Shown piece by piece: positions 57,293 through 64,000 of a stretch of 64,000 nucleotides of DNA. The DNA comes from Methanosarcina thermophila TM-1 (lineage in GTDB: Archaea; Halobacteriota; Methanosarcinia; Methanosarcinales; Methanosarcinaceae). Made by a program: the position numbers and the translations under genes. The first letter of the stretch is position 1. Every line of letters begins with the position of its first letter. Location: NCBI RefSeq assembly GCF_000969885.1, contig NZ_CP009501.1, positions 1,240,001-1,304,000 on the forward strand, given 5' to 3'. Below the pieces are notes generated by a model that made no database searches, was not told the origin of the DNA, and saw nothing but the letters and a program-made list of their open reading frames with translations.

Positions 57293-57778
57293 TTACTCAA
57301 TTTGAATCCTTTTTGTGGTTTCAGATTTTGTTTTCGGCAGGGTGACGGTTAAGACCCCGTTTTTGAGCTGAGCAACTGCCCCTTCATCGGTTACATTGTC
57401 TGGAAGGGGAATTTCACGATAATAACGCATGAAAGCCCTTTCTTTTCTCAGGTAACCTTCTTTTTCGGTCTCCTCTTCTTTCCCTTTCCCTGCACTGATT
57501 ACGAGAACATTATCCCTGAGATCGAGTTCAACGTTTTCCTTGTCAACTCCGGGCAGGTCAGTTGTCACAATTACCTTATCATCTTCTTCGGCAACATCAG
57601 TCAGCGGGGAAAAAGTTGCTGCCCCGAACCGGCTTTCCAGCATAGGGAAATTCCTGAACATCTGTTCCAAATAATCATGCATTCTTCTGATTTCTTCAAA
57701 TGGATTCCAGTTTCTGATCTCATCAAATGGGTCCCAGTAATATACATCACGGTCTGATCTCTTTACTGGCAGTCTCAT
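57293..57778 (-). CDS. Hsp20/alpha-crystallin small heat-shock protein
   Basis: A 161-residue Hsp20 starting at ATG 57778 after AAGGAGGACT. The N-terminal arm is aromatic and has a repeat (YYWDPFDEIRNWNPFEEIRRMHDYLEQMF). The alpha-crystallin domain includes PLTDVAEEDDKVIVTTDLPGVDKENVELDL, and GVLTVTLPK; the C-terminal tail is short (KRIQIE, an IxI-like ending). It is an ATP-independent holdase forming oligomers. The GC content and context are ordinary. It is co-directional with the restriction remnant upstream but 630 bases away. Confidence 0.95.
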   Translation of the reverse strand: MRLPVKRSDRDVYYWDPFDEIRNWNPFEEIRRMHDYLEQMFRNFPMLESRFGAATFSPLTDVAEEDDKVIVTTDLPGVDKENVELDLRDNVLVISAGKGKEEETEKEGYLRKERAFMRYYREIPLPDNVTDEGAVAQLKNGVLTVTLPKTKSETTKRIQIE

Positions 57779-58407
57779 ATACAGAGTCCTCCTTATCCGA
57801 TACCAAGATTCTTTCATCTCAAGCCTTTATGATTTTAGAGACCCTGATTTCAGGATTTTCTCATTTCAGGATCTCCTCATTTCAGGCTTGTATCTCACGT
57901 TTTTCCTGGCTTTTGTCTGGTTTTATGGTGATTAATGATCTGTAAATCTGGCACTTGTCCAGAACAGTTATTCCCTTCTCCGTAGGGCACTGCCTGAAAG
58001 GCAGGATAACTGGGTATGAGAGCTCAAGACTCTCATGCTTTTTCCGGAGGAGGAAATAAGTCCGTTTTTTAAAGACGATAGAGGATACGCTTTTGGTCTG
58101 TTCGCAGATTATTTGTAAAGTAACTGATTGGCAGCAGTACAGTCTATATTTAATATACCTGTACGCTGGTTATTGTTTCTCAGTTACTATCCTATAGTTA
58201 GGATTACTAATATTTAAATTTTTTGTTTGTTTTGAATTCAGCAATTATTAAAACAGATACTTTTTTCGGGAAAACTGCAAAATCTTCAGGCAAGAAGAAG
58301 TTCTTTATTGATTTATAATTATAAAATTTATTGAAGTAGTCCAGCCCAAGATAAAATTAAGCTAAATGGAAGTACAGAGGAGGCAAGCCTGAAGTTAAAC
58401 TGAAAAA
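57779..58407. other. Intergenic region upstream of hsp20
   Basis: No protein gene is seen. The left ~150 bases should contain the hsp20 promoter (repeated TTTCAGGATTTTCTCATTTCAGGATCTCC words). Two adjacent hairpins lie at 57990-58036 and are listed separately. The right half is AT-rich without features. Confidence 0.4.
57985..58042 (+). ncRNA. Candidate small RNA or terminator: two adjacent hairpins and a T-run
   Basis: CTGCCT-GAA-AGGCAG (57990-58004) and ATGAGAG-CTCAAGA-CTCTCAT (58016-58036) are two perfect stems 11 bases apart, the second followed by GCTTTTTCC. No gene on the plus strand ends here, so a short transcript ending at the T-run is one explanation. No clear promoter is visible. 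Confidence 0.3.
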
Positions 58408-61400: not shown

Positions 61401-61669
61401 TTTATCAACAGCAGCCCTGAGCCGGCGCGGCAGAATAACGGTTCCGAAATCTTCCCTTTCAGCATCTTCCGTTTCCGGCGCAATATCCGGACCGTAAAGG
61501 TAATCATAGCCAAGCTCAGAAAGAATTTCAAGGGCTGCTTCTTCAACTTCGGATTCGGGGATGAAGGCGGGAATAAATACCTCTCCTTTTTCATTTGTCT
61601 GTTCTTTTTCATTTGTCTGTTCTTTTTCGTTTGTCTGCTTTCTTTTTTGTCAAATTTGTGCGAACTCAC
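58408..61669 (-). pseudogene. hsdR: Type I restriction endonuclease HsdR, frameshifted and without HsdM/HsdS
   Basis: Three consecutive frames together encode a full-length HsdR (~1,075 residues). The N-terminal frame has FIPAFIPESEVEEAALEILSE; the main frame (58838-61351) has the nuclease region [19 protein letters not shown], helicase motif [10 protein letters not shown], motif [12 protein letters not shown], motif III FTGTP and [11 protein letters not shown]; the last frame has the C-terminal [17 protein letters not shown] region. The breaks are at an A8 run (61352-61359) and an A7 run (58891-58897); removing one base from each restores the frame. No methylase or specificity gene is in the window. 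Either decayed, phase-variable, or sequencing errors. Confidence 0.85.
61588..61640. repeat. 18-base in-frame tandem repeat near the HsdR start
   Basis: On the minus strand ACAAATGAAAAAGAACAG is repeated about three times, encoding TNEKEQ units in the HsdR frame. Length change by whole units would keep the frame. The true HsdR start upstream of it is unclear because the frame meets TGA a few codons before and a GTG-started frame (GTG at 61669) is out of phase. Confidence 0.65.
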
Positions 61670-61902: not shown

Positions 61903-62202
61903 ATGGCGGAAACATTAAGACTATCACCAGTAATTAGTGTATTTCCTGACGACAAATACGAAAACCTCCTGATTGAAGTAATCCTTCCGGGAGTGGAAAA
62001 GAAAGACGTTTCTTTCAAGCTTACAACTGACAGCTTTTATGTGAGCAGTAAAAAAGAAGGAGTAACGTATCTGGACAGCTATCCAACCGACTGCCCTGTT
62101 GTCCCAGAAAAAGCGACAGCCAAGTACTCAAACGGTATACTTAAAGTTACAGTACCTTATCAAAAGCCTTTAGAGAAATTAGTTGATGTGAAAATCGAGT
62201 AA
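61903..62202 (+). CDS. Small Hsp20/CS-fold protein (paralogue of 52961)
   Basis: A 99-residue CS/alpha-crystallin-like protein: LLIEVILPGVEKKDVSFKL, FYVSSKK, then YPTDCPVVPEKATAKYSNGILKVTVPY. The CPVVPEKAxAxY segment and the short length match the gene at 52961, so the two form a subfamily distinct from the longer Hsp20 at 57293. GGGGGT precedes the ATG. A chaperone role is inferred. It lies divergent from the HsdR remnant. Confidence 0.85.
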   Translation: MAETLRLSPVISVFPDDKYENLLIEVILPGVEKKDVSFKLTTDSFYVSSKKEGVTYLDSYPTDCPVVPEKATAKYSNGILKVTVPYQKPLEKLVDVKIE

Positions 62203-62457: not shown

Positions 62458-63120
62458 TTACTCAATAAATCTGTTGATTCCAGCAGCGTTAGCTGTCAAA
62501 TTCTTGATCAACTGCATATCCTCATCAGACAAAGGCTCTTTATTTAATTCATTTACCAACCAGAGCCCACTCGTGTTTATTTTTTCTCTGGGGGAAAACA
62601 ACCCCAGCCAGCTAGGCGAAGGACTGCATTCCTTACATCGGGAAATTGTGGAGATAATTTTTGATTCAAGTTCAAGCCTTTTTTCCTTTTCTTCAACTTC
62701 AATCACAACAAAATTAAAATTTGCCTGTATATATTGGCTTACGTTCTTTTCTACTTCTTTCTGTTTCTCAACGTCAATCAAAACAGAATATTCTTCTTTT
62801 GCCCTCCTGCTGGTCAAATCTAATTCCCACTGATCCAGAAACGGATCTTTATCCCTGTTCAGTAAAGCTCTACCTATATTCTTCCTGAAAATGCTCCGAT
62901 CCTTATTTTCTTTAATGAAATGCTGCTTTAGCCGCGATCTTAACTGGTTTTTACCTGTATGAGTCCCTATTCGAACAATTCTGTCCGTGTTGTGGGCAGT
63001 TTCTCCTTTTTCAAATAAAATGTAAATTCCATTATGAAGAATCTTCTTATCATCAAATGGAAAATTCATCTTTTCCAGATTATTGAACCATCGATGCAGT
63101 TGTTTACAATTTTCACTCAT
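62458..63120 (-). CDS. GIY-YIG-like nuclease domain protein
   Basis: A 220-residue protein. Residues 30-85 fit a GIY-YIG endonuclease core: GIYILFEKGE, then DRIVRIGTHTG in place of YIG, then a basic helix LRSRLKQHF with the candidate catalytic Arg. Candidate catalytic Glu residues occur in the second half (ELESKIISTISRC). The C-terminal ~80 residues (CKECSPSPSWLGLFSPREKI, SGLWLVNELN) are not recognised. It overlaps the upstream DUF6884-like gene by eight bases, so both are translated from one message. It may cut or process nucleic acid; target unknown. Confidence 0.7.
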   Translation of the reverse strand: MSENCKQLHRWFNNLEKMNFPFDDKKILHNGIYILFEKGETAHNTDRIVRIGTHTGKNQLRSRLKQHFIKENKDRSIFRKNIGRALLNRDKDPFLDQWELDLTSRRAKEEYSVLIDVEKQKEVEKNVSQYIQANFNFVVIEVEEKEKRLELESKIISTISRCKECSPSPSWLGLFSPREKINTSGLWLVNELNKEPLSDEDMQLIKNLTANAAGINRFIE

Positions 63121-63517
63121 TTTGACATCTCATTTTAAGATAATGGAGCTGCTTTCCAATTCCTAGTCCTTTTAGAGGAATCTGGTAATTTGAAATATGA
63201 GGCAGTAAATATTTCCTGTATCTTTCGCCCGCAAGGAAAATAAATTCATCTTCTTTCAGATCGGCTTCCTTTTTGATCTGGTCTATTACGCGATCTGCCC
63301 ATTCCTTTGTTTCCTTAAAAGACATATTGGTCAAACATTTATCATAAGGCTCAATTTCCGCCTCCGAATCTACCAGACCGTATTTTGCAGAAAAAATGAA
63401 GATCTTGTCAGGGTTCAAAGATTCAGCGTAATCAAGGCTATATTTGAAAAGTGTACTGATATACAGATCTCTTGCCTTTGCTTTATATGGCAGTTTCTTT
63501 TTCACGCAAGATACCAA
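63113..63517 (-). CDS. DUF6884-like protein
   Basis: A 134-residue protein from TTG 63517, which has GAGATGGTGA seven bases upstream. It shows the pattern I associate with DUF6884 proteins: SCVKKKLPYKAKARDLYISTLF, KIFIFSAKYGLVDSEAEIEPYDKCL, then W in KETKEWADRVIDQI and FLAGERYRKYLLP. The conserved Cys, Arg-Asp and PYD suggest an enzyme active site. Some relatives resemble parts of 7-deazaguanine/archaeosine enzymes, but this link is weak. The overlap with the GIY-YIG-like gene suggests a common function. Confidence 0.65.
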   Translation of the reverse strand: MVSCVKKKLPYKAKARDLYISTLFKYSLDYAESLNPDKIFIFSAKYGLVDSEAEIEPYDKCLTNMSFKETKEWADRVIDQIKKEADLKEDEFIFLAGERYRKYLLPHISNYQIPLKGLGIGKQLHYLKMRCQNE

Positions 63518-64000
63518 ACAATCTTCACCATCTCAACATTCAACCCTGATTTTTCCTGACATGAGTTTTGGGAAAAGAGAGTCACGAATAGAACTAAAGT
63601 TTTGAGACTCTTCAAGATTAGATAATATTTTAGTCATTAAACTATAAATATTTTCAAAAGATTTGATAGCACTGGTTGGAGGTAAAATAGTTTAAATCGG
63701 TCTAAATGTTTTTGTTGAATCTAACTAAATGTTTTTGTTGTAATTGTATTAGAAACAGTATCATATGAATTTTGCTTCATATCTTGAATTAAATTCAGAA
63801 ATGTAAAGAATAAGAAAAAATCTCCATAATCAAACTTACTTTTCAATCCGTATCTTCCCTTAAAACAGATTTTACTAAGAATTTACTAAAAATAAACCAT
63901 GAATATGCTAAAAGTTTTACTAAGAACACGCTAAGAATTTTACTAAGAAAACGCTAAAAATTTACTAAAAATACCAGTTTTTAATCTTGGCGCCTTGCAG
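63518..64000. other. Gene-free AT-rich end of the window with repeats
   Basis: No gene is seen in the last 480 bases. AAATGTTTTTGTTG occurs twice (about 63705-63740). From about 63865 to 63975 a degenerate repeat of TTTTACTAAGAAMACGCTAA and shorter TTTACTAAAAAT units is iterated. Confidence 0.55.

Follow-up and report, generated by a model that had tools for sequence, protein, structure and literature searches.

A two-gene module that joins a DUF6884 protein (gene A) to a GIY-YIG nuclease-like protein (gene B) is real, widespread and already catalogued as a candidate in PADLOC (PDC-M57); what the analysis adds is a link between A and 7-deazaguanine, which makes the pair testable. The best explanation of the module, to which we give just short of an even chance, is a type IV-like restriction pair in which A would recognise a 7-deazaguanine-type base and B would cut. 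The pair was met in a window of 64,000 nucleotides, the whole stretch of DNA analysed here (bases 1,240,001–1,304,000 of the single-contig, 3,127,379-base genome of Methanosarcina thermophila TM-1), and the copy in this window is probably crippled, judging from its sequence, with the start frame of A lost and the type I restriction–modification (RM) locus around it collapsed. The features are as follows, in positions of the window.

62458..63120, minus strand: gene B, GIY-YIG nuclease-like protein, 220 aa, PDC-M57B
63113..63517, minus strand: gene A, 134 aa from a TTG start, DUF6884 protein, PDC-M57A
63113..63120, minus strand: overlap of the A stop and the B start, 8 nt, translational coupling
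63533..63586, minus strand: relic of the hsdS C-terminus (RDSLFPKLMSGKIRVEC and stop), directly upstream of A, last 17 codons and the stop codon
58414..61574, minus strand: hsdR of the type I restriction system, divided among three frames, in its present state a pseudogene
61903..62202, plus strand: Hsp20-like gene between the pair and hsdR, an ORF assigned to its family by inspection

The original prediction had described a GIY-YIG-like and a DUF6884-like gene overlapping by eight bases, and the searches bear this out: both minus-strand ORFs are present, the overlap is exactly 63113–63120, most homologous loci have A/B junctions similar in length to that of the window, and gene A matches Pfam DUF6884 with an E-value of 4.7e-45. 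The PADLOC model PDC-M57A matches A as well (E 8.2e-59), and the PDC-M57B model PDLC04713 matches B with an E-value of 1.5e-105; the Pfam GIY-YIG models match B weakly (E 0.02–0.6). Searches of the PDB with A and B as single sequences gave no match, a PDB profile search with B gave nothing credible, and a profile search with A returned YaaA alone, weakly (E 0.095). The AlphaFold model of B (pLDDT 96.1, pTM 0.91; input alignment of 85 homologues) retains the GIY-YIG fold; a plain Foldseek search with it found no significant match, and the assignment is based on a second look with VIA-align and on the residues. Among the matches listed by VIA-align, all were GIY-YIG structures, including T4 EndoII (Z-score 5.7), UvrC (5.3 and 5.1), Eco29kI (4.7) and the 5hmC-specific restriction endonuclease PD-T4-3 (4.1). 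Residues G31, Y33, R50, G52, R63, H67 and E152 are invariant in the 85 B homologues and give the layout G31-x-Y33, R50-x-G52, R63-x3-H67 and E152, in agreement with the predicted fold. The canonical catalytic set is Tyr, Tyr, Arg, His/Lys, Glu, Asn; B has Arg50 where the second Tyr is expected and does not conserve the Asn, which counts against the type IV-like reading.

Structural and motif comparisons place A in the DUF6884/YaaA superfamily. The fold was taken from a homologous single-ORF A-B fusion (L070; AlphaFold pLDDT 96.5), whose A half aligns with E. coli YaaA (PDB code 5caj) over 129 residues with a Z-score of 10.7. All of 63 A proteins have C4, K8 and A44, which fit the CxxxK and LSAxxG motifs given for DUF6884 (PMC11701544); the LSAxxG position reads FSAKYG in the window copy. 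A similarity of A to CARF/SAVED nucleotide sensors was considered and set aside, the Z-scores of 5–6.6 being within the background of Rossmann-like folds and far under the 10.7 obtained with YaaA. The models of DpdC also match A (E 5.9e-6), in part, over residues 12–89, and the protein in the A slot of two loci (L014 and L089) scores better with DpdC (1.3e-12 and 9.4e-13) than with PDC-M57A (about 1e-8); in a survey of dpd islands, the Pfam domain of DpdC is given as DUF6884 (PMC11888242). These profile matches make A a remote relative of DpdC but not a member of DpdC proper, as the match is partial and a TGT gene lies within 8 kb in 0/80 A-B loci.

One scan of one-per-species genomes gave 80 B loci in archaea and bacteria, with 50–81% identity. 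When variant A proteins are counted, about 69 of these 80 loci have A directly upstream of B and on its strand, so the co-occurrence on which the original prediction depended is found, and the junctions mostly lie within about 25 nt. In seven loci A and B form a single ORF (L015, L026, L045, L047, L050, L069 and L070), and in two divergent archaeal homologues the fusion has the reverse order, GIY-YIG and then YaaA/DUF6884 (L092 and L093; PF03883, 2.8e-14 and 3.7e-10). Sequence distances of A and B co-vary (Mantel r 0.59, a value reached in 0 of 5000 permutations). Chance falls far short of explaining the pairing. The lineages that possess the pair include DPANN, Asgard and Patescibacteria, intact copies are present in, e.g., Methanosarcina sp. 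2.H.T.1A.6 (L010) and Marinomonas communis (L035), and the distribution is patchy, with the pair in 7 of 60 relatives and B-type matches in 30 of 393 genomes of the sampled phylum, many of them haloarchaeal. Homologues of B are absent from 50,697 phages and from 72,556 plasmids, and B is rare in IMG/VR.

No third conserved gene was found: in a set of 145 flanking proteins, each Pfam family is present at most three times and each PADLOC family at most four, and clustering of the flanks of the 80 loci, with antisense readings of A/B excluded, gave no further gene family beyond 3–6 loci (the large flank clusters included such readings, and the largest clusters judged real comprise 3–6 loci). A type I RM system lies beside the pair in L009, L010 and L046. 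A SIR2-family gene is found near the pair in L060, L062 and L084, directly upstream of A in the first two, possibly as a composite defence locus. The arrangement had been called typical of a defence module; the recurrence of the pair and the restriction remnant beside it make defence plausible, but an island context is occasional, being limited to the few loci with type I RM or SIR2 genes, and the pair is self-contained and not part of a fixed defence island. The original prediction also knew of no described role for the pair; our literature search likewise found no function or mechanism described for PDC-M57, although the pair itself is already catalogued in PADLOC, and an archaeal survey describes such candidates as largely unvalidated and embedding-derived (PMC12988326).

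Several variants of the module were observed. B is fused to a Swt1-like HEPN domain in L055 (2309–3838; 6.5e-19) and to HEPN and TPR repeats in L090 (85–2163), which suggests an added effector or sensor. Haloarchaeal loci L094–L110 encode a B-like GIY-YIG protein that is divergent (it matches PDC-M57B model PDLC04714), and the flanks examined contain no recognisable A. Plasmid DUF6884 genes lie beside other annotated nucleases, a GIY-YIG family member in Tolypothrix and an HNH nuclease in Burkholderia (L124 2596–3923 and L123 3501–5128), so DUF6884 may pair with several nuclease types; searches gave no tie between the Tolypothrix GIY-YIG protein and B, and this pairing comes from the record annotation.

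The viral homologues of A connect this family with 7-deazaguanine. The closest phage relative of A, from Fusobacterium phage phiFN37 (51% identity; PDC-M57A 5.9e-49), is encoded in the order ParB-TGT-DUF6884-queuosine transporter, and Rosebushvirus Bananafish carries a DUF6884 gene close to FolE-QueE-QueD-QueC-TGT-ParB; the DNA of Rosebush was reported to carry 7-deazaguanine (PMC6884629). A search of IMG/VR with the A alignment supplied 80 loci, which are not phylogenetically independent; a gene for TGT, QueC, QueD, QueE, FolE or the transporter lies within 6 kb of A in 44, and at least two of these kinds are present in 41. The control, random viral loci of equal total length taken from random 14/16-mer seeds, gave 0 of 94; a RusA-based control was dropped, as it returned near-identical phages. 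Pfam TGT misses divergent phage DpdA, and PHROG 887 (phage TGT/DpdA) and a local phmmer search were therefore used; PHROG 887 was found in 25 of 50 whole viral contigs, and, as a comparison rate, 178 of 50,697 phages match one phage TGT query. Seven of the 80 viral A loci contain B instead of 7-deazaguanine genes and none contains both, and in the 80 cellular A-B loci TGT was found in none and QueC in one. The association points to a possible function of one DUF6884 branch. Most cassette-type A proteins belong to a neighbouring subclade, while L132, L154 and L156 fall among the B-paired A proteins; because of this placement, the ligand may have changed. T4-like viral contigs (L130, L131, L134–L142 and L147) encode A homologues about 50% identical to the window A, with neither 7-deazaguanine genes nor B nearby, which possibly act as a decoy or in counter-defence. 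Further phage lineages also have A homologues without TGT and without B.

The preferred type IV-like reading treats A and B as one two-subunit, modification-dependent system. A, as a protein of the DpdC/YaaA superfamily, would bind the 7-deazaguanine-type base in invading DNA and may flip it out or act on it; B would be an endonuclease of the GIY-YIG type, recruited to such DNA or licensed on it by A. Host DNA would not contain the base, so neither a methyltransferase nor a self-marking enzyme would be needed, and indeed neither a methyltransferase nor TGT is a recurrent neighbour of the pair, as is expected of a nuclease without a cognate modification enzyme. The folds, the conserved active-type residues, the obligate-looking pairing with its fusions and the viral cassettes are observed; we infer the remaining steps, a 7-deazaguanine ligand kept by A when it is paired with B, DNA cutting by B and an antiviral effect. 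7-Deazaguanine bases shield the DNA of phages and of archaeal viruses from host restriction (PMC6884629), and the unrelated GrwAB restricts 7-deazaguanine phages, with escapers that map to dpdA (PMC12137116). If the reading is true, the pair would be a compact counter-move to the 7-deazaguanine disguise, made from a relative of the modification machinery, and the PADLOC candidate would gain a specific ligand, a set of phages and an escape gene (dpdA). Besides the altered catalytic set of B, the retention of B without a recognisable A in some genomes, e.g., the haloarchaeal B-like proteins, counts against it, as do the separate subclade of most cassette-type A proteins, the phage A homologues that have neither TGT nor B, and the lesion interactions reported for YfjM.

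The strongest rival is base- or nucleotide-incision repair, in which A reads a damaged, abasic or ribonucleotide site and B, similarly to UvrC, nicks beside it. YaaA is recovered together with DNA on purification and mutation rates rise when it is lost (PMC4834066), Bacillus YfjM, a DUF6884 protein, was reported among the interactors of abasic and RNA-base lesions, with base flipping in AlphaFold3 models (PMC11701544), and the N-terminal domain of UvrC is among the fold matches of B; however, the patchy presence of the pair in 7 of 60 relatives, its frequent decay in Methanosarcina, its siting inside type I RM loci, the HEPN fusions and the viral 7-deazaguanine cassettes all fit defence better, and we regard repair as unlikely. 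A defence nuclease with another trigger, where the trigger sensed by A is a different modified base or an infection cue and B cleaves DNA or RNA, possibly in abortive infection, is about as improbable: the fusions of B to the Swt1-like HEPN domain and to HEPN with TPRs, the SIR2 neighbours and the CARF/SAVED structures among the secondary fold matches of A (Z-score 5–6.6) would be consistent with it, but these scores lie in the common Rossmann-like range, well under the 10.7 of YaaA, and no cyclase or other signal-making gene recurs. Somewhat less probable again is base-excision restriction, in which A would remove or convert the 7-deazaguanine base and B would cut the resulting site, a nuclease having recruited a protein of the modification pathway to attack the very viruses that modify their DNA in this way. 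A toxin–antitoxin system, with a toxic B neutralised by A, would agree with the small overlapping operon and the frequent decay, but the seven A-B and two reverse fusions favour joint action, B occurs without A in haloarchaea and no B match was found in the 72,556 plasmids, which makes this reading hardly probable. Least credible is a tRNA-directed nuclease with A reading the 7-deazaguanine of tRNA (queuosine or archaeosine) and B cutting the tRNA, since, although DpdC/ArcS-type chemistry acts on 7-deazaguanine and the HEPN fusions point to RNA-cleaving contexts, the viral A homologues lie beside ParB-like and DNA-type TGT genes and the GIY-YIG structures matched by B are DNA enzymes.

The original prediction did not mention that the window copy looks degenerate. 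At the start of A, the relatives (L010, L009 and L005) read ATG...ATTGTTTTGATATC, while the window reads ATG...ATTGTTTGGTATC, with one base fewer; the missing base puts the ancestral ATG at 63531 out of frame, and the TTG start of A would thus not be the ancestral one, although a shorter, TTG-initiated A product is possible. Substitutions L42F, T61C and N63T affect motif positions of A that are at least 95% conserved, and L010 and L009 depart at none of them; in B, P28L replaces a 98%-conserved residue. In other Methanosarcina (L010 and L009), A and B are located between hsdS and hsdR, and comparison of the window with L010, L009, L005 and L090 indicates that homology to the intact loci ends at the hsdS relic. 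Past this end, upstream of the relic, short AT-rich repeats of about 23–24 nt (TTTTACTAAGAA / ACGCTAAAAAT) occur at 63858–63973. An orphan hsdR had been noted nearby, correctly but incompletely: a tblastn search with the intact HsdR of Methanosarcina sp. 2.H.T.1A.6 recovered residues 3–76 in frame -3, 46–896 in frame -1 and 899–1055 in frame -2, and the window contains no HsdM, the rest of the genome giving one weak N6_Mtase match. The type I set of the window is thus incomplete, with hsdR broken, hsdS a relic and HsdM absent. At its N-terminus, HsdR has a K/Q-rich repeat, QMKKNR, encoded by three tandem 18-nt units (61581–61634). The Hsp20-like gene at 61903..62202 is absent from the intact L010 and present in the decayed L008 (blastn synteny); a second Hsp20-like gene, also assigned by inspection, lies at 57293–57817 on the minus strand, and the two flank the broken hsdR. 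Damaged copies occur elsewhere in Methanosarcina: A is frameshifted in L005, L008 comprises a B relic alone, and in L009 the pair is split by about 0.5 kb and the B start is lost. The single-base loss in the window A could be a sequencing error, but decay is favoured, as the locus has three frame breaks that are independent of one another.

The pair shares features with several known systems. The window pair has the two-gene make-up of PDC-M57 and adjacent matches to both of its models, the difference being that the window copy is degenerate and the two genes are not both intact. E. coli YaaA and B. subtilis YfjM (DUF328/DUF6884) share with A the fold and the CxxxK and LSAxxG motifs, but both are stand-alone proteins, whereas A is tied to a nuclease. 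Eco29kI, T4 EndoII, the UvrC N-terminal domain and PD-T4-3 have in common with B the fold and the GIY, R-x3-H and Glu positions; unlike them, B has Arg for the second Tyr and no conserved Asn, and adds a long helical region and a partner that looks obligate. A distant homologue of A by sequence is DpdC, from the Dpd islands for 7-deazaguanine modification of DNA, and viral A homologues occupy a DpdC-like place beside TGT, but A is about half as long and the A-B loci are without DpdA/DpdB or the restriction operon. The type IV restriction systems GrwAB, GmrSD and BrxU have a target class like the one proposed here, modified phage DNA (7-deazaguanine in the case of GrwAB); they are, however, DUF262/DUF1524 NTPase-HNH proteins, and A-B would address such DNA with neither of these domains.
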